Origin: Methanocaldococcus bathoardescens | GTDB taxonomy: Archaea > AGJL01 > Methanococci > Methanococcales > Methanocaldococcaceae | Direction: 5' to 3' | Assembly: GCF_000739065.1 (NCBI RefSeq) | Contig: NZ_CP009149.1 | Span: 1,373,311-1,437,310, forward strand | DNA: 64,000 nt | Shown here: positions 14,733 to 29,600 of the stretch, piece by piece | How the letters are laid out: each line of letters begins with the position of its first letter | Position numbering within the stretch: position 1 is the stretch's first letter | The notes under the pieces: model-generated | Told to the model about the DNA's origin: nothing | The model's database searches: none | Seen by the model: only the letters and a program-made list of their open reading frames with translations | Translations under genes and position numbers: made by a program

Positions 14733-15392
14733 TTATCTTTTCTTAGCCTTCTCTTTTTTAACTTTTACAGCTGGACCCATGGTTAATTTAACATAAGCAT
14801 CTTTTAAGTGGTAGAGACCTTTTTCATACTTCTTAGCTACAACGTTTAAAACTGCCTCTATGTTATCAACTATCTGCTCATCTGTCATTTTTTCGTTTCC
14901 AACTAATACTTGGAAGTATGGTTTATCTCTTGTGTTTATAACAACTGTTTTCTTTAATCTTTCAACTAATGGAGCTATGTTTGCGTTAGCTGGAACTGGT
15001 TTTGGCATCTTTCCTCTTGGACCTAATATAACCCCCATGTATCTACCAATCAATGGCATTAAATCAGCCTGAGCTATAAAGAAGTCGTGAGCATTAGCTA
15101 TTTTTCTTAATTTTCTTTTGTTTTTACCTAATTCTTCAATTTCTTCTTTTCTAATAACAGTTAATCCCATTTCTTCTGCCTGTTTAGCTAAGTCACCAGT
15201 TCCAATAACAGCTACTTTAGCTTCTTTCCCTCTTCCATGAGGAAGCACTACTTCTTCTTTAATTCTGTTCTCTGGCTTCCTCATGTCAATCTCTTTGAGG
15301 GTTGCTATGAATTCAAATGACTGTGTGAAGTTTCTCGGCTTCGCGAGTTCGCGAGCCTCCTTCACCGCTTGCAACAGTGCTTCTCTGTCCAT
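14733..15392 (-). CDS. rpl1: Ribosomal protein L1
   Basis: This is the 219-residue L1 protein of the large subunit stalk (marks: [35 protein letters not shown]). In Methanococcus, L1 also represses its own operon by binding a mimic of its 23S site about 30 nt inside the coding region; the same position here is a GC-rich hairpin (15334-15360). ATG 15392 (MDREALLQ) is chosen with AGGAGG 6 nt upstream; ATG 15398 would directly abut that site. Confidence 0.96.
15334..15360 (-). promoter_or_regulatory. L1 autoregulatory mRNA site inside the rpl1 coding region
   Basis: About 32 nt after the start codon the mRNA reads GGAGGCUCGCGAACUCGCGA followed by AGCCGAG. This is strikingly GC-rich, with codons (GCG, CTC, CGC) otherwise avoided in the gene. 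Translational control by L1 binding at such an intragenic site is established in Methanococcus vannielii. Position and sequence match that model; binding here is inferred. Confidence 0.7.
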
Positions 15393-15450
15393 ACTCATCC
15401 TCCTTTCTTTTTTATATTTGACAAAAAGCATCCATATTATATGGCATCTG

Positions 15451-15463
15451 ATATAAATATTTT
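15451..15463 (-). promoter_or_regulatory. TATA-box promoter of the L1-P0 operon
   Basis: The minus-strand AAAATATTTATAT lies about 60-70 bp upstream of the rpl1 ATG, with room for a leader of roughly 35 nt. It is the only TATA-like match between the rpoL end and rpl1 at a suitable distance. Confidence 0.45.
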
Positions 15464-15511
15464 ACACTTAAATTGAAAAGAGTAGGTATTCTGTTTTCTC
15501 AATAGTTAGGT

Positions 15512-15539
15512 AAAATTTTCAACACTAATTGAAAATTTT
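15512..15539 (-). terminator. Possible terminator after rpoL
   Basis: An 11-bp inverted repeat (AAAATTTTCAA / TTGAAAATTTT) with the loop CACTAA is flanked by T/A runs. It lies 85-112 bp beyond the rpoL stop, between the rpoL transcript and the L1 promoter. Archaeal termination mainly needs T-runs, so the hairpin may be incidental. Confidence 0.35.
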
Positions 15540-15623
15540 TATATTGCTAAGATATCCAACACCCTATATAAAATTTTCGGTTATTAATGAGAAGAGGTTA
15601 AAATTTGAAAGCTTTATTTAATT

Positions 15624-15923
15624 TTATTTGTTTTTCTTTAATTCGTCTAATAAAGTATCGCACATTTCAATAATATCTTTCAACCCTTCTTTTAAAACAT
15701 CTATAGGGTCTGTTCCTTCTTCGGTAATTATTGTTATTTTCGGATTTGATATGTATCTTCCAGTTTCTGGATGTAATAAAGGATGGTCTATAGAGTAAGA
15801 AGCCATCTTTACTCCTTCTTTTGTTAATAAGATATCTTTCAATAAATTTGGTAGTGAATGGTCTTCGTTAATTAACTCAATTTCTACCAAATTATCCTTC
15901 CTCTCCAATATCTTTATCTCCAT
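15624..15923 (-). CDS. rpoL: DNA-directed RNA polymerase subunit L
   Basis: This is the 99-residue archaeal RpoL, homologue of Rpb11/AC19, which dimerises with RpoD in polymerase assembly. Marks are HSLPNLLKDILL and YSIDHPLLHPETGRY. GGAGG precedes two consecutive ATGs (15926 and 15923); either could start it, and 15923 has the better spacing. The start lies inside the end of the upstream DUF2067 gene (overlap 32 bp), which indicates co-translation. Confidence 0.95.
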   Translation of the reverse strand: MEIKILERKDNLVEIELINEDHSLPNLLKDILLTKEGVKMASYSIDHPLLHPETGRYISNPKITIITEEGTDPIDVLKEGLKDIIEMCDTLLDELKKNK

Positions 15924-16515
15924 CATCTCCCTCCAATAAAACTTTTTTAGCTAAGTTTATATCTTTGTTTAATACAATTCTTCCTTCCTCTTCTCTAAAG
16001 AATTCTTTTTCTAAAGCCTCTTCAATAATATCATCAATTGGCTTTTTGGTAATGTATGAAACCAATACTACCAAATTTTTGAGAGGTTTTGAACCAAGAT
16101 TTGAAAACTTTAGCTCTTGATATAGCTCATGAAGGTCTTTTAGAATTTCATTAAATTTATTAATGTCTATATCTGTTTTTATAGCATTTTCATCTTCTAA
16201 GTATATAACTCTATATCCCAAAGTTTTTAACGCATCTATAACCAAGTTTTTATTAACTGGATATTTAAGCTCAGAAAGGTGATATTCATATAAACCTTCT
16301 TTATCTTTTCTATACTTTTTCCTAACTTTATCCATTAAGTTCATCACAGCTCTATAGTTTTCATTTAGAGAATCCTTATCATATCCAAATACATATATTT
16401 TTACATGATTTCCTTTTGATTCTATTGTGCAGTCAATATTTAACCTTGATAATCTCTCGCAAAGCTCTAAAAGCTCTTCATCACAACTAACCTTTGATGA
16501 AATAATCTTCCTCAT
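15892..16515 (-). CDS. DUF2067 family protein
   Basis: This 207-residue soluble archaeal protein is of the DUF2067 type; its function is unknown. The N-terminus (VSCDEELLELCERLSRLN) and middle are helical and charged, with no catalytic motif I recognise. GGTGAT precedes ATG 16515. It overlaps rpoL by 32 bp and is divergent to tyrS with 79 bp between them, an arrangement also seen in M. jannaschii (MJ0387-MJ0389, from memory). Confidence 0.75.
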   Translation of the reverse strand: MRKIISSKVSCDEELLELCERLSRLNIDCTIESKGNHVKIYVFGYDKDSLNENYRAVMNLMDKVRKKYRKDKEGLYEYHLSELKYPVNKNLVIDALKTLGYRVIYLEDENAIKTDIDINKFNEILKDLHELYQELKFSNLGSKPLKNLVVLVSYITKKPIDDIIEEALEKEFFREEEGRIVLNKDINLAKKVLLEGDDGDKDIGEEG

Positions 16516-16594
16516 GATATCACCGTAAATTTATAAATTATCCCTGCATATATAATAAACTTTTGCATGAACAAAAATGTTGTGGTGATACCTA

Positions 16595-17515
16595 ATGAAT
16601 GAATTTGAGATTATAAAGAGAAACACATCTGAAATAGTTAGTGAGGAAGAATTAAAAGAGGTTTTAAAGAAAGATGAAAAATCTGCTTACATAGGTTTTG
16701 AACCAAGTGGTAAAATCCATTTAGGACATTATTTACAAATTAAAAAGATGATTGATTTGCAAAATGCAGGATTTGATATTATCATATTGTTAGCTGATTT
16801 ACATGCATATTTAAACCAGAAAGGAGAGTTGGATGAGATTAGAGAGATTGGTGAATACAATAAAAGAGTTTTTGAAGCGATGGGATTAAAGGCAAAATAT
16901 GTTTATGGTAGTGAGTTTCAGCTTGATAAGGATTATACTTTAAACGTCTATAAATTAGCTTTAAAAACTACCTTAAAGAGAGCAAGAAGGAGTATGGAAC
17001 TTATAGCAAGGGAGGATGAAAATCCAAAGGTTGCTGAAGTTATATATCCAATAATGCAGGTTAATGATATTTATTACTTAGATGTTGATGTTGCAGTTGG
17101 GGGGATGGAGCAAAGAAAAATACACATGTTAGCAAGAGAACTTTTACCAAAAAAAGTTGTTTGCATTCACAACCCAGTATTAACTGGTTTAGATGGAGAA
17201 GGAAAGATGAGTTCTTCAAAAGGAAACTTTATAGCTGTTGATGACTCTCCAGAAGAGATTAGAGCTAAGATAAAGAAAGCTTACTGCCCTGCTGGAGTTA
17301 TTGAAGGAAATCCAATAATGGAAATAGCCAAATATTTCCTTGAATATCCTTTAACTATAAACAGACCAGAAAAATTTGGTGGAGATTTAACCGTCAATAA
17401 TTATGAAGAGTTAGAGACTTTATTTAAAAATAAAGAACTTCACCCAATGGATTTAAAAAATGCTGTAGCTGAAGAGCTTATAAAGATTTTAGAACCAATT
17501 AGGAAGAAATTATAA
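16595..17515 (+). CDS. tyrS: Tyrosyl-tRNA synthetase
   Basis: This is the 306-residue short archaeal class I synthetase that charges tRNA-Tyr. The HIGH-type signature appears as [10 protein letters not shown] (about residues 45-54) and the KMSKS loop as KMSSSKG (about 204-210). YIGFEPSGK at about 37 contributes to the tyrosine pocket. The C-terminal anticodon-binding domain is the compact archaeal type, ending [12 protein letters not shown] 16595 follows GGTGAT. Confidence 0.97.
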
Positions 17516-17905
17516 TTAGACAATTATTATATTACTTAATTTTCTCTTTTTCTCTTCTTTTTTAAGCTCTTCTAATGAAATGGGTTTAGAATCAGCTACA
17601 ATAATATCATTATTTTTTCTATCATTAGTTTTTTTAGTAATTTTATTAAAGTTAGAGCTTAAATTTTTATAATCTTGTTTTTTAACCTCTTTTTTATCTT
17701 TATTTTTGTGATTTGGTAAAGTTTTATATCTAATTTTAACAACAATTTCTCCCTCTCCTTCATCTTTGTCAAATGGTAGATTTATTTTAGCAGTATCTTT
17801 AGATAAAACTTCCAATGAAACATTTTTATCCCCTAAATAAATATCAACATAAGAAATTAAAACACTTTCTGGATTTTGAATTGAGAGAATTATTTTCTCT
17901 TCCAT
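17516..17905 (-). CDS. Conserved hypothetical protein (129 aa)
   Basis: I do not recognise a family with a known role. The first 65 residues look like a beta-rich domain (MEEKIILSIQNPESVLISYV; GEIVVKIRYK). A lysine/asparagine-rich low-complexity linker and a short C-terminal segment ending KLSNIIIV follow. It ends exactly against the convergent tyrS stop and starts 6 bp after cbiT, so it is likely co-transcribed with cbiT. Confidence 0.6.
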   Translation of the reverse strand: MEEKIILSIQNPESVLISYVDIYLGDKNVSLEVLSKDTAKINLPFDKDEGEGEIVVKIRYKTLPNHKNKDKKEVKKQDYKNLSSNFNKITKKTNDRKNNDIIVADSKPISLEELKKEEKKRKLSNIIIV

Positions 17906-17911
17906 GTTTAT

Positions 17912-18454
17912 CTACCTAACAGCTTTTATTATGGTTATTGGATTCTTTGCCAAAAACATGTGTCCAGAAGAGATTTTTTTGCTATAAGAAATAAAAACAT
18001 TAACCGCTTCAACATTATAGCCCTTATTTTCCAATTCGTTTATTATTTTAACAGCATTCTCTAAAACAATTGTATTGGCAACAATATGGTTTATTTTCTT
18101 TTTATCCAAAATTTCAATTATCTTTTCAATATTTTTTGTCCCACCTATAAAAGCTTTATTAAACTCTAATTCATCTAAAATATCTTCTGCTTTTCCTTTT
18201 ATGACTTGACAGTTTTTAATATTAAATTTGGCTAAATTTTGTTTAGTTAGCTCAATAGCATCATCTAAGTAATCTATAGCATATACAAACTTGCATCTCT
18301 TGGCTATCTCAACTGTCATTCCTCCACTTCCACAACCAATATCAACAACAACATCATTCTTATCTAAATTTAATTTCCCAATGCTTACAGCTCTAATTTC
18401 TTCTTTTGTTATTGGGATGCTTTCTTTCCTTATAAATTCTTCATCTGGAATCAT
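17912..18454 (-). CDS. cbiT: Cobalt-precorrin-6B C15-methyltransferase (decarboxylating) CbiT
   Basis: This 180-residue SAM-dependent methyltransferase belongs to anaerobic cobamide synthesis. Motif I is DVVVDIGCGSGGMTVEIA (about residues 33-50), acidic motif II is AIDYLDDAIEL, and NKAFIGGTKNIEKII is the CbiT-specific region. Methanogens need cobamides for methyl transfer. ATG 18454 follows GGTGA. A palindromic element sits 18 bp upstream of the start codon, in the place where the promoter should be. Confidence 0.9.
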   Translation of the reverse strand: MIPDEEFIRKESIPITKEEIRAVSIGKLNLDKNDVVVDIGCGSGGMTVEIAKRCKFVYAIDYLDDAIELTKQNLAKFNIKNCQVIKGKAEDILDELEFNKAFIGGTKNIEKIIEILDKKKINHIVANTIVLENAVKIINELENKGYNVEAVNVFISYSKKISSGHMFLAKNPITIIKAVR

Positions 18455-18471
18455 AGATTTTCACCGAATAA

Positions 18472-18583
18472 TATAGTGTCTTTCAAAATTGATAAAATTT
18501 ATTAAGGAAGATTTGAACGCCTTTCTTTGGAAAGGCGTTTATAAATACCTTATTTATTCCAATGAGTTTTGAAAGACACTATA
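18472..18583. mobile_element. MITE-like element with 17-bp perfect terminal inverted repeats
   Basis: TATAGTGTCTTTCAAAA (18472-18488) and its exact reverse complement (18567-18583) enclose 112 bp with a strong internal hairpin (AACGCCTTTC / GAAAGGCGTT). The terminal sequence matches that of the element at 56362-56503 at 14 of 17 positions. It lies between the divergent genes cbiT and the S2P-like protease, so it is likely part of their transcribed or promoter DNA. Confidence 0.72.
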
Positions 18584-18656
18584 AATATGCTATGAAATAG
18601 TAATATATAGTAATAGGAATTAAAAATGTAATTAAAATAAAAATAGGGGGAGGGGT

Positions 18657-19676
18657 ATGAATTACTCAATAAGATTATTCAAAATTATGGGAATTCCAAT
18701 AGAGTTGCATATAACTTTTATTTTATTTTTAGTGGTTATAATTGGGCTGTCTATTATTAATAACAGCATATTTTGGGCAGTTCTCTTTATTTTATTATTT
18801 GTATCTGTTGTTTTACATGAGCTTGGGCATAGTTACGTTGCTAAGAAATATGGAGTAAAGATAGAGAAAATTTTGCTATTGCCAATTGGTGGAGTAGCAA
18901 TGATGGACAAAATTCCAAAAGAGGGAGAGTTAAAGATAGGTATAGCTGGACCTTTAGTTAGCTTTATAATTGGGATAACTTTATTGGTTACATCTCAATT
19001 TTTTGATATAGATATAAATGGATATCCTTTACTATACACTTTAAGCTTACTAAACTTAATGCTTGGGAGCTTTAACTTAATTCCTGCCTTTCCTATGGAT
19101 GGAGGAAGGATATTAAGAGCTGTTTTATCAAAAAAGTATGGCTATTTAAAATCAACGAAGATAGCGGCAAATATTGGGAAGAGCTTAGCTTTAATCATGC
19201 TAATATTTGGTCTCTTATCAATGAATATTATATTAATTTTAGTGAGTTTATTCGTCTACTTTGGGGCTGAACAAGAAAGTAAAATAGTAGAAATTGAAAC
19301 AATATTTAAGAATATTAAGGCAAAGGACATTATGACATTAAATCCCGTATATGTAACTCCAGATATGAGTGTTGAGGAGTTTTTAGACTTCATGCTTAAA
19401 CATAAATATTTCGGTTATCCAGTAGTTGAAAATGGAAAGTTGATTGGATGTATTGGAATAAATAACATACACAAAAAAGAAGGGACTGTTAGGGATTACA
19501 TGCAAAAACCTGTTGTAGTTGATGAAGATACTGACATAAATGATATTCTAAGAAAAATGGCTTATACTGATAGAGTGTTTGTTGTAAAGGATGGAAAGTT
19601 AAAGGGAATAATATCAAAAACAGATATATTGAGGGCTATGAGTATATTGGAATTAAAAGAGGAATTAGAACGTTAA
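18657..19676 (+). CDS. Site-2-protease-family zinc metalloprotease with CBS domains
   Basis: This 339-residue intramembrane protease (M50 family) is closely like the M. jannaschii S2P whose structure is known. Six hydrophobic segments fill residues 1-215. The zinc site is HELGH (about 55-59) in VVLHELGHSYVAKKYG, with the second ligand region NLIPAFPMDGGRI (about 139-151). Two CBS domains at residues about 222-335 (DIMTLNPVYV; YMQKPVVVDE) probably bind adenosine nucleotides. The substrate is unknown. GGGGGAGGGG precedes ATG 18657. Confidence 0.93.
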   Translation: MNYSIRLFKIMGIPIELHITFILFLVVIIGLSIINNSIFWAVLFILLFVSVVLHELGHSYVAKKYGVKIEKILLLPIGGVAMMDKIPKEGELKIGIAGPLVSFIIGITLLVTSQFFDIDINGYPLLYTLSLLNLMLGSFNLIPAFPMDGGRILRAVLSKKYGYLKSTKIAANIGKSLALIMLIFGLLSMNIILILVSLFVYFGAEQESKIVEIETIFKNIKAKDIMTLNPVYVTPDMSVEEFLDFMLKHKYFGYPVVENGKLIGCIGINNIHKKEGTVRDYMQKPVVVDEDTDINDILRKMAYTDRVFVVKDGKLKGIISKTDILRAMSILELKEELER

Positions 19677-19680
19677 AAAT

Positions 19681-19863
19681 TTATTCATTCTTTTGTGGTT
19701 GTTTCCATTCCATATAACCGCATCTTCCACATGCATACCTGTTTAAGTGCTCAGCCATGAAAACTCCAGGCCCACATCTTGGGCAAACCTTCTTCAATCT
19801 AACAACTTTATCTCCTTCAATTTTGTAGTATTTGTATTTTGCTGTTTTTTTACCTTTTGTCAT
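19681..19863 (-). CDS. rps27ae: Ribosomal protein S27ae
   Basis: This 60-residue zinc-ribbon protein of the small subunit has the cysteine pairs CPRCG and CGRCG. The rest is lysine-rich (MTKGKKTAKYKYYKIEGDK). The start overlaps the S24e stop by one base (TAATG), typical of translational coupling. Confidence 0.95.
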   Translation of the reverse strand: MTKGKKTAKYKYYKIEGDKVVRLKKVCPRCGPGVFMAEHLNRYACGRCGYMEWKQPQKNE

Positions 19864-20171
19864 TATTCTCCCTCCTCAGCAGCTGTTTCTTCTTCTATTT
19901 TATTTTTTCTTAAGATGTGTTCTCTTTCAATTAATTTCATCATTTCTTCGTTGTCATATAATTTAGCATAACCTCTTGCTCTCTGCATTCCAGCTTCTTC
20001 AACGATTTTTTCAACTATTAATAAATCCTTGTTTGCATTTAACATTGCTGCAAGCTTTAACTTAACATCTTTAAAGGTTGGTGTTGCTCCATCGTGGTCT
20101 ACAATGAATCTGTATTCTTTTCTCTTCAATAATGGGTTGTATCTTTCTGATAATATTTTTATTTCCATCAT
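19863..20171 (-). CDS. rps24e: Ribosomal protein S24e
   Basis: This is the small-subunit protein S24e, 101-102 residues. Recognised parts are MEIKILSERYNPLLKRKEY at the N-terminus and DHDGATPTFKDVKLKLA in the middle, with an acidic C-terminal tail. Two consecutive ATGs (20171 and 20168) follow GAGAGGGGAT; either may be used. It is coupled to S27ae. Confidence 0.95.
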   Translation of the reverse strand: MMEIKILSERYNPLLKRKEYRFIVDHDGATPTFKDVKLKLAAMLNANKDLLIVEKIVEEAGMQRARGYAKLYDNEEMMKLIEREHILRKNKIEEETAAEEGE

Positions 20172-20223
20172 TTATATCCCCTCTCATTTTTTTGATGATT
20201 TTTAACAATATAAGGTTTTTGAG

Positions 20224-20709
20224 TTATTCTATTTTTTTGAATTGTTTTAGAATTTCTTCAATTTCTTGTTTTAGTTTTTCATCTATTTTTAGTACAACGA
20301 TTCCTTCATTTGGCTGACCGTATAGAACGTAAGTTCCAATGGGAAAGTATTTGATAACAATTAAAGTAAGGAGGTCTTCCTCACCATCAACCAGTAGAGC
20401 AATGTCTTTATCATTTATTGTAGATAGATATTTAATACTTTCTATTGCTTCATCAGATATGCATCCAGGAGGATTTTTTACCTTAATAATTTTTTTGAAT
20501 GTATGGTTTATTTCAACGGGAATATCTCTTTGAGTTTTTAAATCAAAAATGGAAAGTTTTGGAATTATATTATTTTCTATGACAGTTTTTGTTACAATAT
20601 CTCCAACAGTTACGATATCTCCATCTATATCTGGTAGTGTTTTATATACTTTTCCAAAGGGCTTTTTTAATTTTTCCCTCAACTTTTCTGTAAGCTTTAA
20701 CATAGCCAA
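20224..20709 (-). CDS. GTP-dependent dephospho-CoA kinase (DUF359 family)
   Basis: This 161-residue archaeal protein belongs to the DUF359 family, shown in other archaea to phosphorylate dephospho-CoA using GTP, the last step of CoA synthesis. Family marks are [49 protein letters not shown] and [10 protein letters not shown]. The start is TTG 20709 (4 nt after GGAG) or ATG 20703 (10 nt after). It is packed between S24e and spt4, one base after the spt4 stop codon. Confidence 0.88.
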
Positions 20710-20710
20710 T

Positions 20711-20890
20711 CTACTCCTTTACACTTAGTGCATACTTCCCTTTAATATCAATCCCTGCCTTTTTGGCTATCTCTGATTTTTCTGGATTTATAACTATTAA
20801 AAGCCCAATCCAATTTTCACTGGTTGGGGATTGACATATTGGACATGTTTCATCATCTGTTAGATATTTGCATTTTAAACAAGCCCTCAT
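20711..20890 (-). CDS. spt4: Transcription elongation factor Spt4 (RpoE'')
   Basis: This 59-residue zinc-binding protein has the cysteines [20 protein letters not shown] and the conserved continuation [18 protein letters not shown]. In archaea Spt4 pairs with Spt5 and raises RNA polymerase processivity. The gene is shorter than common ORF cut-offs and is easy to miss. It starts 9 bp after the rpoE1 stop codon, as in other archaeal rpoE1-spt4 pairs. Confidence 0.95.
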
Positions 20891-20899
20891 AAGCTCACC

Positions 20900-21463
20900 T
20901 TAATCTTGCTGTTCTTTTTTAGCTTTTTCTTCTTCAATCCACTCTAATTTCCCTAAATATGGCTGTCTCATGGTTAACGCTATCTTACTACCTCTCTTTC
21001 TCTCTGCTTTTAAACTAATAGCAACAATCCTTGCCCTAACATAATCTCCAATTTCCAAAACCTTTCCAGTTTCTTTTCCAATAATTGCTTCCCTCTTAGG
21101 GTCGTAAGATACATAGTCATCCATAATTTGTGAAACGTGGATTAATCCATCTAAAGGTCCTAATCTTACGAAGCTTCCAAATTCAACGACATCAACAACC
21201 TCTCCCTCAATAAGTTCATACATCTCTGGGATATAGACGAGGGTTTCAAATACAACTGGATGATAGGCAGAGCCATCACCATGCACTACCTTACCTTCTC
21301 CAACTTCTTTTACATCTACGATGGATAAAATAAATCCAACGTCTTTATCTAATCTTCCTTCATATTTTTCCATGAGAATTTTTTTTACAGTTTCTTTCAA
21401 ATCTTTTCCAAATTCTTCTGGCGGAACTCTAACAACATCAGCAATCTCTAAAATTTTATACAT
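20900..21463 (-). CDS. rpoE1: DNA-directed RNA polymerase subunit E' (RpoE1/Rpb7)
   Basis: This 187-residue stalk subunit of RNA polymerase is the homologue of Rpb7. The N-terminal tip domain begins [18 protein letters not shown]. The C-terminal S1/OB domain ([28 protein letters not shown]) binds the nascent RNA. ATG 21463 is chosen because GAGGTGA lies just upstream; the longer frame to 21544 has a hydrophobic leader that runs through this site. Confidence 0.96.
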
Positions 21464-21627
21464 AGGATATTCACCTCTCGGTTCAGTTAAATTTAATAAA
21501 AAAAGAGATATTGATGATATAAAATGTTTAATAAAAATTAACAAAATAATTCAAATTGTGAGTAATTAACTAATTTGTTACAAAGTTGTATTTATAATTA
21601 ACCATCTAATTTAAGAATTTAAATAAA

Positions 21628-22485
21628 TTATATCCCAATTTTATCTATGACAATTCCAATTATTCCACTTCCAACAATAACACTAAATAAATACCTTAGC
21701 GTTAATTTTATTCCATATATTCTTTTCATCCCCAACAATAAAGGCAATCCAATAGATTGTGAAGAAATTAAAAATGAAATAATTAACCCTTTTGGAATCC
21801 CTTCTATTGCAACCACTTTTATTAACGGAATCATCGCATGTGGGCAGAGAAAGATAAATATTCTTATTATTGAAACATAAAAATATGTGATTATATTGTT
21901 AGAAAGGATTAATAAAATTGTCTCCTTTGGAACATAAGTCATTACAAATCCAGAAATCAAAAATCCTAAAAATATTGAAGGAAACAGTTTTTTAAATTGC
22001 TCAATAAATACATCAAAAAAATTGTCATTAGATTTTTTATTCTCGAATGCGAAAAATATCGCCCTTTTATTATAAAAAACAAATCCCACAAATATGGACA
22101 AAATTAAAGATGCTAAAATTTGTATAACTGCTATTTTATAACCTAACAATGAGAGAGATAACAAAATTCCAATTGGATTTATTGCTGATGCGGATACAAC
22201 AAACGCAAAGCTAATCCCTAAATTAACCCCTCTTGAATTCAACGCATTTGCTATTGGAATGCTACTTGCAGAACATAAAGGTAAGAAAGCCCCAATAATT
22301 GATGCTAAAATTATGGATTTTTTTGAATTATCCAATAAATGAACAAACTTTTTTCTTAAATCCCCTTTTAACTTTATTTTTAAATAAGTAGATAAAATAA
22401 ATCCAAACATAAGGTATGGAAACGCTTTTAAAAAGAAGTTTAGAGAGCGTTCCAATGAAAGATAAATATCAGATATATTAATCAT
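21628..22485 (-). CDS. DUF318 (YraQ)-family membrane permease
   Basis: This is a membrane protein of about 285 residues with 8-9 hydrophobic segments. Two repeated signature regions, GAFLPLCSASSIPIANAL with SASAINPIG, and CPHAMIPLIKV with SSQSIGLPLLLG, identify the DUF318/YraQ permease family, whose members are thought to move metals or oxyanions. ATG 22485 is chosen: it overlaps the end of the preceding Fe-S gene (TATGATTAA), with GGAAG in front. It is the third gene of a unit with the Fe-S membrane protein and the substrate-binding lipoprotein. Confidence 0.8.
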   Translation of the reverse strand: MINISDIYLSLERSLNFFLKAFPYLMFGFILSTYLKIKLKGDLRKKFVHLLDNSKKSIILASIIGAFLPLCSASSIPIANALNSRGVNLGISFAFVVSASAINPIGILLSLSLLGYKIAVIQILASLILSIFVGFVFYNKRAIFFAFENKKSNDNFFDVFIEQFKKLFPSIFLGFLISGFVMTYVPKETILLILSNNIITYFYVSIIRIFIFLCPHAMIPLIKVVAIEGIPKGLIISFLISSQSIGLPLLLGMKRIYGIKLTLRYLFSVIVGSGIIGIVIDKIGI

Positions 22486-23134
22486 AACTTCCACACTTTG
22501 AACATTTTTCACATTTATGTTCATTTTTGTAAGTGTTTTTTATTTTTCTGAAAGCTTTTTTTATTAATTGGAATGTTGTCCCATAAGGACACAAAAACCT
22601 ACACCAAAACCTTGGTATAGCAATACCTAAAATCAATCCAATTATGATTAATGCCAATCTTGCATAATATGCGTTTTCAGCAGTTAAAAAAGCCAATTTT
22701 ATTGATGCTATTAAACTACTTGTGTGGATTGGGATGTAATATCTTGGGTTTCCATTCAGTAGTGCGATTATGGCAAAAACAAACACAACATACTTTAAAA
22801 AATTAAAAGTCAATTTTAGTTCTAATGGAATTTTTAATGTATTCTTTGAAAATTTTCTTCTTATTTTGTAAATAATGTCGTTTAAAGTTCCATAAGGACA
22901 AACCCAGGCACAAAAATCTTTCCTAAACAAAGCAATATACCCAAGGGCAAATATAACAAACTCTCTTCTATAATACTTGGAAGGACAATCAACAACAGGA
23001 CACATATCACATGCTAAAAATGGAATAACATAGGGGCATCTTAAAATAACAATAATCAATGTTGGAATAGCAACGATAAAAACACCATATTTAACAATTA
23101 ATGATAAAATTCTTTTAAATTTCTCAAAATTCAT
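22478..23134 (-). CDS. NapH/NosR-like 4Fe-4S polytopic membrane protein
   Basis: This 218-residue protein has about five transmembrane helices. Two CP motifs sit in the typical NapH/NosR/CcoG-like loops (CAWVCPYGTLNDIIYKIR; CRFLCPYGTTFQLIKKAF), with a further Cys cluster (LACDMCPVVDCPSK) and a terminal CEKCSKCG. Such proteins pass electrons across or within the membrane. ATG 23134 is chosen, 4 nt after GGTGAT. It overlaps the permease start and follows the binding lipoprotein by 38 bp, so the three are probably one operon. Its electron partner is unknown. Confidence 0.8.
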   Translation of the reverse strand: MNFEKFKRILSLIVKYGVFIVAIPTLIIVILRCPYVIPFLACDMCPVVDCPSKYYRREFVIFALGYIALFRKDFCAWVCPYGTLNDIIYKIRRKFSKNTLKIPLELKLTFNFLKYVVFVFAIIALLNGNPRYYIPIHTSSLIASIKLAFLTAENAYYARLALIIIGLILGIAIPRFWCRFLCPYGTTFQLIKKAFRKIKNTYKNEHKCEKCSKCGSYD

Positions 23135-23172
23135 TATTATCACCCCAAAAATAGAATTAAAAAGCAAAGTAA

Positions 23173-24024
23173 TTATTTAGGGGCAAGGTCTATATATTCT
23201 GGGTAATATTTATGTAATATTTCTTGACCTTTTTCAGATTTTACTGGAATAAATCCATGTTTTGCTAAAATGCTCTGTCCTTCATCTGATAAGACAAATT
23301 CCATGTATTTGTATGCTAAATCTTTGTTCTTTGAGTTTTTCAAAACACCAATTGTGAATAAGCCATCTGCTTTGTTTAAATATTCTCTTGGAATCTCAAT
23401 AATTTCAACATTTCCTTTTACACCATCTAAATATGCACATCTTCTCTCAACAAGTGCAGCATCACATTCTCCATCAACTACTGCTTTTAACATCTTTCTG
23501 TAGCAATCAAAATCCTTTGCACTTTTCTCATAAATCTTCTCAATTATATCCTTTTTTGGTTTTAATGCTCTACTTTCTGGAATTGATGCTTTTGAGTTTG
23601 TATATACAACAACATCATCCCTTAATAAATCTTCCAATTTGGTAATGTTCTTTGGATTACCTTTTGGAGTTATTATTACCCACTCAGTAAATTGGTAAAT
23701 TTTGAAATCTGGCTCAATTAAACCTTCATTTAATAATTTCTCTGCATGTTTAACCCCCCTTGGCATATATACATCACAGTATGCACCATTTTCTATTGCC
23801 TTTCTTAATGTTCCTGAACTTGCACCTGTAAATTCTACTTTACAGTTGTATTTTTTCTCAAAAACAGCATTTAATTCTTGAAGAGCTTCAGTTGGCCCTC
23901 CACAGCTATAAACTACTAAAGTTGGAATCTCTTTCTGAGCTTCAGTTGCTTGGTTAGAAGTGCATCCACTGAGAAGTAAAGTTGATACAACAATCCCCAC
24001 AACTAAGGCAAAAAACTTCCTCAT
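23173..24024 (-). CDS. ModA/WtpA-like extracytoplasmic substrate-binding lipoprotein
   Basis: This 283-residue protein begins with a lipoprotein signal (LVVGIVVSTLLLSGC, Cys 21). The mature domain is a type-2 periplasmic binding fold (TLVVYSCGGPTEALQEL; FTGASSGTLRKAIENGAYCDVYMP; GLFTIGVLKNSKNKDLAYKYMEFV), as in molybdate/tungstate-binding proteins. The SSGTL segment corresponds to the oxyanion-binding serine. No ABC ATPase or ABC permease follows; instead there is an Fe-S membrane protein and a DUF318 permease. The palindrome-like TTAGTTATTAG lies 22 bp upstream. Confidence 0.82.
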   Translation of the reverse strand: MRKFFALVVGIVVSTLLLSGCTSNQATEAQKEIPTLVVYSCGGPTEALQELNAVFEKKYNCKVEFTGASSGTLRKAIENGAYCDVYMPRGVKHAEKLLNEGLIEPDFKIYQFTEWVIITPKGNPKNITKLEDLLRDDVVVYTNSKASIPESRALKPKKDIIEKIYEKSAKDFDCYRKMLKAVVDGECDAALVERRCAYLDGVKGNVEIIEIPREYLNKADGLFTIGVLKNSKNKDLAYKYMEFVLSDEGQSILAKHGFIPVKSEKGQEILHKYYPEYIDLAPK

Positions 24025-24206
24025 AGTTTCACCATATTAGATTTTCTAATAACTAAATTACGAAATTTTCAAAAGTAGTTTTGATTTTTCATATAAAAAA
24101 TTTGTTATTTAGAATTTTTAATGACAATTTGGATATTAGAAACCAAAATATTAGGGGGCTATTTTTAAATTTCTCCTTTAATTAAAATTCGTTACAAACC
24201 ATGAAA

Positions 24207-24221
24207 CGAAAAGTATATATA
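24207..24221 (+). promoter_or_regulatory. BRE/TATA promoter of the tRNA pair
   Basis: CGAAAA (24207-24212) joined to TATATATA (24214-24221) is a strong archaeal promoter. It lies 54 bp before tRNA-Arg, leaving a leader of about 30 nt for RNase P to remove. The two tRNAs are 22 bp apart and likely share it. Confidence 0.75.
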
Positions 24222-24274
24222 GTAGAAAGTTCATTGTAGAAAGTGCTTGCAAACCAAAAAGGTTGAGTTGGAGA

Positions 24275-24352
24275 GGACCCGTAGCCTAGCCTGGATAGGG
24301 CACCGGCCTTCTAAGCCGGGGGTCGGGGGTTCAAATCCCCTCGGGTCCGCCA
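24275..24352 (+). tRNA. tRNA-Arg (TCT)
   Basis: The acceptor stem GGACCCG/CGGGTCC closes a normal cloverleaf with T-arm GGTTCAAATC. The anticodon loop CTTCTAA gives TCT. The discriminator is G and the CCA end is encoded. No intron is present. It reads AGA/AGG, the dominant arginine codons of this genome. Confidence 0.96.
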
Positions 24353-24374
24353 ATTTTTCTATTTTTTATTGATT

Positions 24375-24449
24375 GCTCCGGTGGTGTAGTCCGGCCAATC
24401 ATGCGGGCCTTTCGAGCCCGCGACCCGGGTTCAAATCCCGGCCGGAGCA
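24375..24449 (+). tRNA. tRNA-Glu (TTC)
   Basis: The acceptor stem GCTCCGG/CCGGAGC, the GC-rich anticodon stem and the loop CTTTCGA with anticodon TTC define tRNA-Glu. The discriminator is A and CCA is not encoded. The GC-rich stems in an AT-rich genome fit growth at high temperature. Confidence 0.95.
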
Positions 24450-24511
24450 TCATTATCTTATAAAAGTTTATATTTATTAATTTGGATTAATTGATTATTT
24501 TGAGGGATTAC

Positions 24512-25615
24512 ATGCATCTATGTATTAAATGCAAAGGTAAAGGTTATTGCGGAAAGCAGACATGCCCTCTTTTACATAATATTTATAAATCCAAATTTAA
24601 AGAAATTTTAAAATATCTGCCAGAGATTAAAACTGAAGTATTTGGGAATTCTACATCTTTTTTAGTTGGGAGAGTTAATTATCCAAATGTATTTATATCT
24701 CCACTTATTGGTGGGTTTGAGGATGTTGAACATCTATATGGTCTTAAAAAAGAAGAAATATTAAAAATTAGGTTAAATCTATTTTCCCCAAGAATTAAAG
24801 TAAATGCATACAAAATCAATACACTAATTGAAAAATTACAGGAAATAGCTATGAGTATAAAGCCAGTAAATTCTGAAGTGGAATTTTATAATAAACCAAA
24901 AATAGTATTGCCATTTTTTAATGACATTCCACCTATTGGCCCAGTTGGTGAGCTAAAAAGATTAAATTATGACAATCCAAAAATTCCGCAAATTGTTGAT
25001 AAGGTAATTGATGATTATTCAATTGAAGGAGTTTTAAAAATTTATAAAAAATTTGATGAAATTTATGCTTCAAGATTGTTTTCTTGTGGAATTTTGGGAA
25101 AAGAAAAAAAGCTGATTCCAACAAGATGGGCTATAACTGCAGTTGATGATATCATAGGAAAAGAATACATCAAAAAAATTAGGGATTATAAAGTTTTAGA
25201 TGAACCATTGAAGTTTGAAAATTATTATTTGGGTAATAGGTTTGAGATTTATTTCTTACCAAAACCTTGGAGCTTTAAATTAATAGAAACTTATAAAGCA
25301 GGATGTATTTGGAATAAAAGCAATAGAGATATAACTATTTTTGATTCTGAAATTAAAGAGAGGAAGAGATATGCCAGTAATACAGGAGGAGCTTATTACG
25401 CGGCAAGATTGGCTGTTTTGGAAAAATTAAATAAAATGAAAAGGCAGGCAAAGGTTATAGTTAAAAGAATTGTTGAGAGGAGTTATGATATTCCTTTAGG
25501 AGTTTGGGTTATTAGGGAAGGAGTTAGAGATGCGTTAAACAAAAAACCTTCTAAAATAGGGCAGAATGAAATAAAGAATTTAGACACTCAGAGGACTTTA
25601 GATGAATATATATAA
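24512..25615 (+). CDS. nreA: NreA-type DNA repair protein
   Basis: This 367-residue archaeal Nre protein is linked to DNA-damage repair. The N-terminal zinc motif is CIKCKGKGYCGKQTCPLL. The conserved SLIGGFEDV-like and WAITAVDD segments follow. The C-terminus ends QRTLDEYI, a PCNA-interacting peptide as known for the family. ATG 24512 is chosen with GAGGGAT upstream; the TTG at 24491 lies before that site. Confidence 0.92.
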   Translation: MHLCIKCKGKGYCGKQTCPLLHNIYKSKFKEILKYLPEIKTEVFGNSTSFLVGRVNYPNVFISPLIGGFEDVEHLYGLKKEEILKIRLNLFSPRIKVNAYKINTLIEKLQEIAMSIKPVNSEVEFYNKPKIVLPFFNDIPPIGPVGELKRLNYDNPKIPQIVDKVIDDYSIEGVLKIYKKFDEIYASRLFSCGILGKEKKLIPTRWAITAVDDIIGKEYIKKIRDYKVLDEPLKFENYYLGNRFEIYFLPKPWSFKLIETYKAGCIWNKSNRDITIFDSEIKERKRYASNTGGAYYAARLAVLEKLNKMKRQAKVIVKRIVERSYDIPLGVWVIREGVRDALNKKPSKIGQNEIKNLDTQRTLDEYI

Positions 25616-25758
25616 GCTAAAAATAATCTTATTGCGATTTAGGTTTCTTTAATTATCTTTATATTTTTAAAGGTTCATATATGCTATTTGTGAATCGAAT
25701 TAGCACACATTATTTTAATACAAACACTTCAGAATGATTAAGAGTTTGAGGGGGAATT

Positions 25759-26607
25759 ATGGGTGATATAAATAAAATGGCATTAAATAAATTAAAAGAA
25801 ATATTAAAAGAATTGAATAAACTTCCTGGAATTATAGGTTCGGCAATAATAAAAAAAGATGGTGAAATTGTCGCAAAGGACATGCCCGATTATATTAACG
25901 ATGATTTTATGAATATGCTATCTACTATAGAAGGGTTTATAGAAAATATGTTATCTAATAGCAATGATATTGCACCAAATGAAGTGATAATCAGAGGGAA
26001 ACATGAAAATATAATAGCAGTTAATATAGGGGATGTTATTTTGGTAGTTATGTCAAATTTAAGAGCAAATTTAAATAACATCTTAGAAATTATTGATGAT
26101 TTTTCAGATGATATAAAGAATTATTGTAATATGTTATTTGAAAATACCTTAGAATTCCCAATTAAGCAGATTCTCTCAATGGGAGGAAGAAAAAGGTTTG
26201 GGAGGGATGTAGACATATCAATATTTAGGATTCTTAGATTTATAAATTTAAGAAAATATATTGGTGTGGATAATGAAACACTGATGTATTATTTTGGTAA
26301 AGAACTATGTAGAAATTTAAAATTTAATAATTTTGATGAATTGAGTGATTTTTACGAAAAATATAAACTTGGAGAAATTCAAATGATTAGTGAAAACCCT
26401 ATAAAAATAAGGATATATGATTGTGTAAGTTGCGCTGGAATGCTGAATGTTGGAAAACCATTATGTCATTTTGAAGCAGGATTTTTATCTGGTTATATGG
26501 AAAATACATTTAACAAAAAATCTTATGTTATTGAAACACACTGCTGGGGATTAGGAAATGAATTCTGTCAATTTGAGATTAAATTAATTAACAAACCAAA
26601 AAAATAA
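25759..26607 (+). CDS. Roadblock/LC7 plus V4R domain protein
   Basis: In 282 residues the N-terminal part (about 1-115: LPGIIGSAIIKKDGEIVAKD; IIAVNIGDVILVVMSN) resembles the Roadblock/LC7 dimerisation fold. The C-terminal part (about 150-278) is a V4R small-molecule-binding domain with CVSCAGMLNVGKPLCHFEAG and THCWGLGNEFCQFEI. V4R domains sense hydrocarbons or hydrophobic ligands; the conserved Cys and His could bind a metal. It lies 48 bp upstream of smc on the same strand. The ligand and partner are unknown. Confidence 0.75.
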   Translation: MGDINKMALNKLKEILKELNKLPGIIGSAIIKKDGEIVAKDMPDYINDDFMNMLSTIEGFIENMLSNSNDIAPNEVIIRGKHENIIAVNIGDVILVVMSNLRANLNNILEIIDDFSDDIKNYCNMLFENTLEFPIKQILSMGGRKRFGRDVDISIFRILRFINLRKYIGVDNETLMYYFGKELCRNLKFNNFDELSDFYEKYKLGEIQMISENPIKIRIYDCVSCAGMLNVGKPLCHFEAGFLSGYMENTFNKKSYVIETHCWGLGNEFCQFEIKLINKPKK

Positions 26608-26655
26608 AAATAAGTAGAGCCAGTTATTTACATTTTTAGATAGATGGTGGTTGTA

Positions 26656-29600
26656 ATGGTTACTTTGGAAAAGATAGAGCTTAAGAACTTTAAATCATTT
26701 AAAAAATTGTCATTAGATGTTCCAAAGGGATTTACTGCTATAGTTGGGCCAAATGGAAGTGGAAAGTCCAATATAGTTGATGCTATTTTATTTGTACTTG
26801 GAAAAACATCTGCTAAAAAATTGAGGGCAAATAGGTTTAGTGGATTAATAACCTATCACAATGGAAAGAGGGCAGATTTTGCAGAGGTCTGTTTATATTT
26901 CTCAAATGAAAATAATGCATTTAATGTTAATGCTGAGAGAGTGGGGATTTTAAGAAGGATAAAGAGTAGTGGAGAGACAGATTATTATTTAATCTGGAAG
27001 GAAAATGATAAAGAAAAGAGAAAAAAGATGGCTAAGCATGAAATTATTGATTTATTTAGAAGATTGGGACTTTTGGGGGATAATGTAATTTCACAGGGAG
27101 ATTTATTAAAAATTATCAACATCTCACCAATTGAGAGAAGGAAGATTATTGATGAGATTAGTGGAATATCTGAGTTTGATGAAAAAAAGAAAAAAGCTGA
27201 AGAGGAATTAAAAAAAGCAAGAGAGTTAATTGAGATGATTGATATAAGAATAAATGAGGTTGAAAATAATCTAAAAAAACTTAAAAAAGAGAAAGAAGAT
27301 GCAGAGAAGTATATTAAATTAAATGAAGAGTTAAAATCTGCAAAATATGCCTTAATATTAAAAAAAGTTAATTATCTAAATATGCTCTTAGAAAATCTTC
27401 AAAATGACATTAAAAACTTAGAAAGCCTTAAAGATGAATTTTTAGGAAAAGTTAGAGAAATAGATGCTGAGATAGAGAATTTAAAATTAAGATTAAACAA
27501 TATCGTTAATGAACTCAATGAAAAAGGAAATGAAGAGGTATTAGAGCTTCACAAATCAATTAAAGAGCTTGAGGTAGAAATTGAAAATGATAAGAAAGTT
27601 TTAGACGGCTCAATAAATGAATTAAATAAAATTGAAAATGAAATTGAAAATAAAAAGAATGAAATTGATGAAACACAGAAGAAGATTATTGAGAATAGAG
27701 ATAAGATTATTGAAAAGGAAAATAAGATTAAAGAAATTGAGGAAAAAATTAAGGATTTAAATTATGAGAAAGAGAGATTAAAAGAGGCAATTGCTGAAAG
27801 CGAAAGCATTATCAAAAATTTAAAAAAGGCTGAGATGGAAATAGCAAATGAAATAGCTAAAAATCAAAATGAACTCTATAAATTAAAAAAAGAATTGAAT
27901 GATTTAGAGAATTTAATAAGTAGAAAGAATTTTGAAATTGAAAAAAATAATGAAATTATCAAAAAATTAAAGGAAGAGCTTGAAACCATTGAGGATGTAG
28001 ATACCAAACCATTATACTTAGAACTTGAAAACCTAAATGTTGAAATTGAATTTTCAAAGAGAAGGATTAAAGAGCTTGAAGAAAAAAAGAAAGAACTACA
28101 AACAAAATTGGATGAACTGCATGCTGAATATGTTAAGGAAAACGCAAGAATTAAGGCTTTAAAAGAAATGGAAGAGCTATCTGTAGATAGAGCTATTAAA
28201 GAAATCTTAAATGCCAACTTGCCAGGAGTTATTGATATTGTTGGAAATTTAGGAAAGACAAAGATTGAGTATAAAACTGCTATTGAAGTAGCGGCTGGGA
28301 ATAGATTGAATCATATAGTTGTTAAGCGAATGGATGATGCTGTTAGAGCTATAAAGTATTTAAAAGAAAGAAAGTTGGGGAGAGCTACATTTTTGCCATT
28401 GGATAGGATTGAAGGTAGAGAGGCAGATTATATCTATGAAGATGGTGTTATTGGAAGAGCTATTGATGTAGTAGAGTTTGACGAAAAATATAGGAAGATT
28501 TTTGAATATGTGTTTGGAAACACGGTAGTTGTTGAAAACATAGATATAGCAAAAGAATTAGCTAAAAAATATAGAAAAGTAAGGTTTGTAACATTAGATG
28601 GGGATGTTATAGAGCCGAGTGGGGTGATGATTGGAGGGACTTTTAAAAGTAAGGCAAAGATAAAGGTTGATATTGATTTAAGTAAGCTAAATAGAATAGC
28701 TGATGAAATTATAGCCATTGAAAATGAGTTAAGAAATATTAAAGGAGAGATTGAAAGATTAAATGAGATAATAAAAAAGAGTTCTGCCAAAAAAATGGAG
28801 ATTGAGAATACCTTGGAAATTATTAAAAAGAATGAGATGAGAAAAAGAGAGATTACTGAAAAGAACACTATAAAGATAAAAGAATTGGAGCTAAAAAATA
28901 AGGAAATTTTAGATGAGATGGAAGAGCTAAAACTTAAAAAAGAAGAAATTTTAGATAAAATTAATGAGATTGAGGATAAAATAAATGAGTTGATTGAAAA
29001 AAGAGAAAAAATAATGAACGAGTTAAAAGAATATGAAAGCGATGAAAATTTAAAAAGGATGAATGAAATTGAAGATGAATTAAAAATTTTAGAGAAAGAA
29101 AAAGCTAAGTTAAAAAATGAAATTGATAAAGGATTAACTTTAGTCAAAGAGATATTAATTCCAAAGATTGAAGAGTTAAATAGGAAAGTTTCTGAGCTGA
29201 TAAATAAAAAAGCAATATTAGAAAAGAATATTTCATTCTACAAAGAGAGCATTCAGAAAAACTTGGATATATTAGAAGAAAAGAAGAAGAGATATGAAGA
29301 GCTAACTAAAAACTTAAAAGAACTCACCACAAAAAAGGAAAAACTTGAGAAAGAAATAGAAAGCTTAGAAAGAGAAAGAAGAGAAATATTAAAGAAAGTT
29401 AGAGATATTGAAAATAAAATAAATGAACTTATGGTTGAAAAGGCAAAATACGAAAGTAAATTAGAAGAAGAGGATAGAAAACTCTACCTATGTGAAAAAG
29501 TAGATATAAGTGAAGAGCTTGAGAAAAAAGACATTGAAGAACTTGAGATATATATAGGAGAGCTTGAAAATGAAATAAAAAAATTAGAACCAGTTAATAT

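Follow-up and report, generated by a model that had tools for sequence, protein, structure and literature searches.

Three adjacent genes in the window, the whole 64,000-nucleotide stretch of Methanocaldococcus bathoardescens DNA analysed here, probably specify a selenium-scavenging permease that depends on a binding protein, works with a redox partner and is derepressed in Methanococcales when selenium is scarce. The genes, hereafter the trio, code for a ModA-like substrate-binding lipoprotein (SBP), a NapH-like membrane Fe-S protein and an ArsP_1/DUF318 permease (Table 1), and they share an operator-like box with selenium-starvation genes of the LysR_Se/HrsM regulon. Sequence and published data provide the linkage of the three genes, their co-occurrence, the shared box and the adjacency of selD in one genome; published data also show that two of the trio genes are induced in Methanococcus maripaludis.

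A preliminary description of this DNA had reported the three genes as tightly packed, with the last two overlapping and no ABC transporter component nearby. Reading of the open reading frames confirmed the three minus-strand genes and their family assignments; the permease and NapH frames overlap by 47 nt and a 38-nt gap separates the NapH and lipoprotein genes. No ABC permease or ATPase was recognised between 15 and 31 kb of the window, or in loci L046-L049 and L053, by reading of the frames and a crude scan for Walker A plus LSGG motifs. The trio is located between the gene for an Rpb7-type RNA polymerase subunit and a tRNA-Arg gene in a genome of 1,607,556 bases; its other neighbours are a tRNA-Glu gene, an Nre gene and a gene for an MsvR-like protein.

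Table 1. Features of the trio locus (window coordinates).
Feature	Position	Strand	Details
ArsP_1/DUF318 permease	21628-22524	minus	298 aa; PF03773 ArsP_1 E 7.8e-39
Segment missing in congener G006 at the same site	21629-24183		blastn of window 15001-27000; flanks 37 nt apart in G006
NapH-like membrane Fe-S protein	22478-23134	minus	218 aa from ATG; PF12801 Fer4_5 E 8.1e-16
ModA-like substrate-binding lipoprotein (SBP)	23173-24024	minus	283 aa; PF13531 E 3.2e-47; lipobox LLLSGC
Dyad ATTAGAAAATCTAAT, putative operator of LysR-type selenium regulator	24036-24050	minus	11 nt before SBP start codon
V4R/roadblock protein related to regulator MsvR	25759-26607		below NCBIfam cut-off

The three products were compared with family models. 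The lipoprotein passes the NCBIfam equivalog cut-off for modA (TIGR01256, 68.4 bits versus 62.5). The NapH-like protein scores 66.5 bits with TIGR02163 (NapH/MauN), under the cut-off of 213; it has hydrophobic segments, the two CX3CP motifs that are a NapH trait (C76-x3-C80-P and C179-x3-C183-P) and a CX2CX2C at its C-terminus, and its sequence lacks the C-terminal CX2CX2CX3CP ferredoxin motif. The permease exceeds the Pfam gathering cut-off for PF03773 (134 versus 32.3 bits), and in an alignment of nine sequences Cys84 (PLCSAS) and Cys227 (FLCP) are invariant. It matches two efflux models, SaoE and SO_0444, weakly (104.1 and 102 bits, far under the cut-offs of 325 and 300). Profiles of the NapH-like protein and of the permease gave no match to solved structures.

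The preliminary description had named a lack of linkage in other genomes as one observation that would refute its reading; the linkage is there. A NapH search across the phylum (36 genomes) led to the trio loci, and the same three families are adjacent in five further Methanococcales genomes, which is more than chance. Including the window genome (G000), the adjacent arrangement is found in six of the nine genomes with all three genes (the others being G035, G033, G022, G014 and G017). The NapH and permease frames overlap at five of these six intact loci, the exception being G033, where a gene for FmdE adjoins the trio. The same genome carries a second copy of the lipoprotein gene (L077; G033:C1:93697-94467) with two in-frame TAA stops, apparently decayed. 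In G018, G019 and G020 the trio is split into an SBP-NapH pair and, some 7-8 kb away, a second NapH-permease pair; in G019 two FecCD permease genes (L052:11552-13818) are found near the latter pair, with similar frames in G018 and G020. Finally, in G013 and G007 the SBP-NapH pair is divergent and the permease is lacking.

The distribution of the trio is narrow. At E<1e-100 an SBP profile detected members in 11 of the 394 archaeal genomes searched (next genome, 5e-36), and a NapH profile found the same 11 genomes as that SBP search at E<1e-80 (next, 5.5e-27). At E<1e-138 the permease profile picked out nine of 36 genomes, all with SBP and NapH (next, 4e-14). Profiles built from the members of each of the three families added no genome and gave sharp score gaps, and every trio member found belongs to the order Methanococcales. 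A wider archaeal or bacterial occurrence of the trio was rejected on inspection of 13 SBP relatives (23-43% identity, contig scan), several of which are beside ABC-type genes as judged from the starts of the frames; no frame at these 13 loci matched the NapH or permease of the window at E<=1e-3. In five of the genomes behind these loci NapH had no close match, the best being at 3.8e-9, and a 386-genome sample around G396 gave a single SBP match at E<=1e-30 (8.8e-32), which is within the range of other SBPs.

The 2.55-kb trio block is present or absent as a whole, since its matching flanks in G006 are just 37 nt apart; in G003 blastn likewise places them near each other, at a distance of about 0.1 kb. 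Just past the insertion boundary are the tRNA-Arg and tRNA-Glu genes (window 24275-24451), the trio block stopping approximately 90 nt earlier. The trio products are 88, 89 and 77% identical to those of G035, whereas TyrRS is 83% identical to that of G035 and 95-96% identical to those of congeners. This pattern makes a gain by horizontal transfer plausible, without proving it; repeated loss of the trio might account for it instead. Altogether, linkage, co-occurrence and the lack of the whole block in G006 show that the trio behaves as a unit. The last two observations argue against the idea of a lipoprotein that works for a distant ABC transporter of the same genome, with unrelated roles for the other two genes. 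Orphan binding proteins are known, and the divergent pairs of G013 and G007, which lack the permease, would suit such an arrangement, which we nevertheless regard as very improbable. The window genome contains one other match to the lipoprotein at E<=0.001 (29% identity), and this protein comes with an ABC permease and ATPase of its own.

A connection with selenium emerged from published expression data. In M. maripaludis JJ, selenium depletion raises expression of MMJJ_00160, annotated as molybdate-binding, by 5.79 log2 units and that of MMJJ_00180, a putative permease, by 3.10; MMJJ_00170 is not in the same table (PMC11097638, Table 1). To our reckoning these genes belong to the trio of G014. 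When genes of this assembly are counted from base 1, with two short frames (50 and 58 aa) left out, a 59-aa frame included and the parts of a gene split at a 20-kb fragment edge joined, SBP, NapH and permease are genes 16, 17 and 18, fitting MMJJ_00160/00180, and the aquaporin (MIP) gene is number 28, fitting MMJJ_00280, the glycerol uptake facilitator. Likewise, sauU, sdm, vhc/frc, tusA, hgdB-pstS1, hmd, pgtC and yedE are near the places predicted from their tags. We therefore take G014 to be strain JJ, an identification that the agreement of tag numbers makes tight. Neither MMJJ_00160 nor MMJJ_00180 is among the genes deleted in that study. Five candidate loci were removed, selected for lacking an obvious role in energy metabolism (transport of nickel, iron or molybdenum, for instance); a clear phenotype, with selenocyanate, was seen only for the sauU deletion, and no locus proved absolutely required (PMC11097638).

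These data bear on a reading in which the trio would export or recycle selenium or another metalloid, the SBP sensing or buffering the ligand, the ArsP-type permease exporting it and the Fe-S protein reducing it. The permease is related to ArsP through PF03773 and weakly matches SaoE and SO_0444, both efflux models. Characterised ArsP-family members do export (organoarsenicals in the case of ArsP proper), which counts against import. However, the induction reported for the two M. maripaludis genes follows depletion rather than excess (PMC11097638, accessible text), and a binding lipoprotein would suit capture better than export. Altogether, we consider export clearly improbable and favour scavenging.

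Genomic context adds to the selenium link at one locus. The gene immediately preceding the trio in G022, 299 nt upstream on the same strand, is selD, which contains an in-frame TGA; this adjacency is seen at one of the six intact loci, the other five having different neighbours. A selD-like match is present in all 36 genomes of the order, exceeding the cut-off in 33, and tRNA-Sec exceeds its cut-off in 33 of 36. Given this ubiquity, the selenium trait was rejected as a discriminator within the order. SBP and NapH, by contrast, are missing from 25 of the 36 genomes; the trio is therefore not needed for selenium use. G014 yielded no tRNA-Sec over the cut-off despite the reported use of Sec in M. 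maripaludis, probably owing to limits of the search or of the assembly.

Upstream of nine of the 11 SBP genes is a dyad, ATTAGA-N3-TCTAAT, of the form ATTARAAAWWYTAAT. Its position is -24 to -26 from the SBP start codon at all six intact loci and farther upstream in G018-G020; the dyad is missing upstream of SBP in G013 and G007. The T-N11-A shape is typical of LysR regulators, and the dyad of the window has this shape. A matrix of the box was derived from six trio promoters, leaving out G014, and then scored on M. maripaludis (G014) promoters. All seven held-out selenium-starvation promoters (vhc/frc, sauU, yedE, hmd, pgtC, hgdB-pstS1 and tusA) scored between 13.3 and 17.6 bits. At least 13 bits, a threshold chosen after the scores were seen, was reached by three of 227 controls, by two of 225 without the gene divergent from the trio, and by none of 97 controls with 100 nt of intergenic upstream sequence. 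None of 1000 permuted dyad matrices separated the sets as well, and a rank test, which is independent of the threshold, gave p 5e-6. The M. maripaludis trio site scores 13.4 bits.

The seven promoters are the ones that could be placed from the main text of PMC11097638, where induced genes number 51 in all (MMJJ_04340 was not placed). An earlier scoring included 14 starts, 11 of which scored at least 13.3 bits; four starts were tried in the pgt cluster and two were high. Keeping one leader per intergenic region left seven promoters. The sdm gene was left out of the set because its region had been fetched by the motif.

The box also precedes a LysR-type gene, one in each of G000, G035, G022 and G033 (16.2, 16.2, 14.8 and 16.2 bits, respectively), as would be the case for a self-regulating LysR protein. 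A search for LysR_substrate found no match in G014, leaving four of five genomes with a LysR gene. HrsM is reported in M. maripaludis (PMC11097638, accessible text), and the missing match probably reflects limits of the search or of the assembly. According to the same text, HrsM bound between frc and vhc keeps the Cys-isogenes repressed under adequate selenium. No paper on the HrsM binding site was among those listed by literature searches; we infer that HrsM binds the box. In G000, selD has a perfect box upstream (18.96 bits); in G022, G035 and G014 the region before selD has no outstanding match (10.5, 10.5 and 5.9 bits). A box before selD as a general rule was rejected, G000 being the sole positive among four genomes with a result.

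Genome-wide, matches to a degenerate pattern outnumber those of a reversed control in G000 (17 vs 7), G017 (14 vs 5) and G035 (23 vs 7); the pattern is not over-represented in G014 (7 vs 6). Six of the seven G014 matches were inspected: two are at selenium-linkable genes (the trio and sdm) and four are not. Matches also occur at genes with no known selenium link, for example before psmA (named by reading) in G014 and G017. Box sites in G035 precede tusA-dsrE, a gene for HGD-D and an operon that encodes a Sulf_transp (YedE-like) protein and a Se/S carrier, and the accessible part of PMC5322559 links families seen at these sites to selenium use. Three boxes surround a gene for HGD-D (2-hydroxyglutaryl-CoA dehydratase-like) and one for a molybdopterin oxidoreductase (formate dehydrogenase-like) in L173 (G000:C1:255000-262000). 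In three genomes a conserved gene encoding a GRDS(V/A)AAI-like motif also has a box nearby (L198:17593-18939 in G014, L173:1411-2895 in G000, L176:4920-6931 in G035); these genes, perhaps for a PP-loop enzyme, are possibly further members of the selenium regulon.

The lipoprotein was analysed for the nature of its ligand. A model based on an 8-row alignment (pLDDT 74.4, pTM 0.75) matches substrate-binding protein folds with Z scores of 16.7-18.8 among the 50 best matches listed, headed by ModA and ferric-binding proteins. The first lobe aligns significantly to ModA (9.5e-10) and the second does not by the same method, making the mapping of Val152 and Tyr170 the weaker. The ModA positions contacting the oxyanion are Ser12, Ser39 and Tyr170, in agreement with the letters of the E. 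coli sequence. By alignment, E. coli ModA Ser12 becomes Gly43 and Tyr170 becomes Glu193; the Ser39 column (residue 70, Ser/Ala/Thr) is Ala or Thr in six of eight aligned orthologues. Two cysteines that are invariant in an alignment of 11 sequences, Cys41 and Cys174, adjoin the predicted site, the former two residues before the Ser12 position and the latter next to the Val152 position. Replacement of ModA ligand residues, together with cysteines beside the site, speaks for a thiol-reactive ligand rather than molybdate.

These features also weigh on the possibility that the trio takes up tungsten, molybdenum or iron, needed in larger amounts when cells switch from selenoproteins to cysteine isoenzymes and Hmd. 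The regulon of the trio also induces hmd and the Cys-hydrogenases, and the box is common to hmd and vhc/frc; regulon membership is thus no proof of the substrate, and a metal is possible. Such a substrate would also agree with the modA cut-off passed by the lipoprotein, with its best structural matches, ModA and ferric-binding proteins, and with the FmdE gene beside the trio in G033. Yet the serine and tyrosine of the ModA site are replaced, the genome has a separate SBP-permease-ATPase set, and selD is upstream of the trio in G022, so that we hold uptake of another element to be unlikely. The oxyanions proposed in the preliminary description can accordingly be narrowed to selenium: selenite, which it listed, stands, whereas the replaced ligand residues and the selenium-starvation regulon tell against molybdate and tungstate, despite the modA score.

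We infer the substrate, direction, energy source and electron path of the favoured selenium-scavenging system as follows. The outward-facing lipoprotein would bind a selenium species, with selenite or another thiol-reactive form favoured, in a ModA-type cleft with substitutions at the molybdate-binding serine and tyrosine positions and a pair of cysteines beside the site. It would then pass the ligand to the ArsP-family permease, acting as a binding-protein-dependent secondary importer that uses no ATP. The NapH-like protein may move electrons into the membrane or through it, serving the reduction of bound selenium or else the maintenance of reduced thiols in SBP and permease. NapH partners quinones in bacteria; these methanogens are not known to have quinones, and the electron donor would thus be another carrier. 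Expression would be controlled by the LysR-type regulator (HrsM/LysR_Se) through the ATTAGA-N3-TCTAAT dyad. More tentatively, the trio could be the first dedicated selenium importer, one in which an ArsP-family permease works with thiol/redox capture and electrons from a membrane ferredoxin, without an ATPase and under a LysR-type selenium regulator; this full version remains doubtful.

The trio is a prime candidate for the open question of selenium transport, in a genetically tractable archaeon, and the dyad offers the selenium regulon a putative operator motif that lends itself to testing. The lipoprotein bears a molybdate-binding annotation, and the deletions described in PMC11097638 avoided obvious transport loci for nickel, iron and molybdenum.

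Literature searches for a DUF318 permease in a methanogen returned no paper. Among known systems, the selenocysteine-assisted organometallic (SAO) system resembles the trio in being selenium-linked transport with binding proteins, SaoB and SaoX (accessible part of PMC13188914, on Haft and Gwadz 2023). It differs in having an ABC transporter and the lyase SaoL (same source), and in its SaoE, to which the trio permease is a weak match (104.1 bits against 325); the SaoB and SaoX models were not among 18 NCBIfam families at E<=0.01. YedE/YedF, a predicted selenium transporter with a redox protein (accessible part of PMC5322559), is likewise a selenium-linked membrane transporter, and yedE is induced by selenium depletion in M. 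maripaludis (PMC11097638, accessible text). The yedE promoter also shares the box. The protein families of YedE/YedF are different, and the system has no binding protein. ModABC and WtpABC have a lipoprotein of the same fold and family as the trio SBP; the trio differs in having no adjacent ABC permease or ATPase and in the replaced oxyanion residues. NapH and related membrane ferredoxins share the Fer4_5 domain and two CX3CP motifs with the trio protein, which scores below the NapH cut-offs. TRAP and TTT systems are binding-protein-dependent secondary transporters; the trio would be a transporter of the same kind, with an ArsP_1 permease and an extra Fe-S protein.
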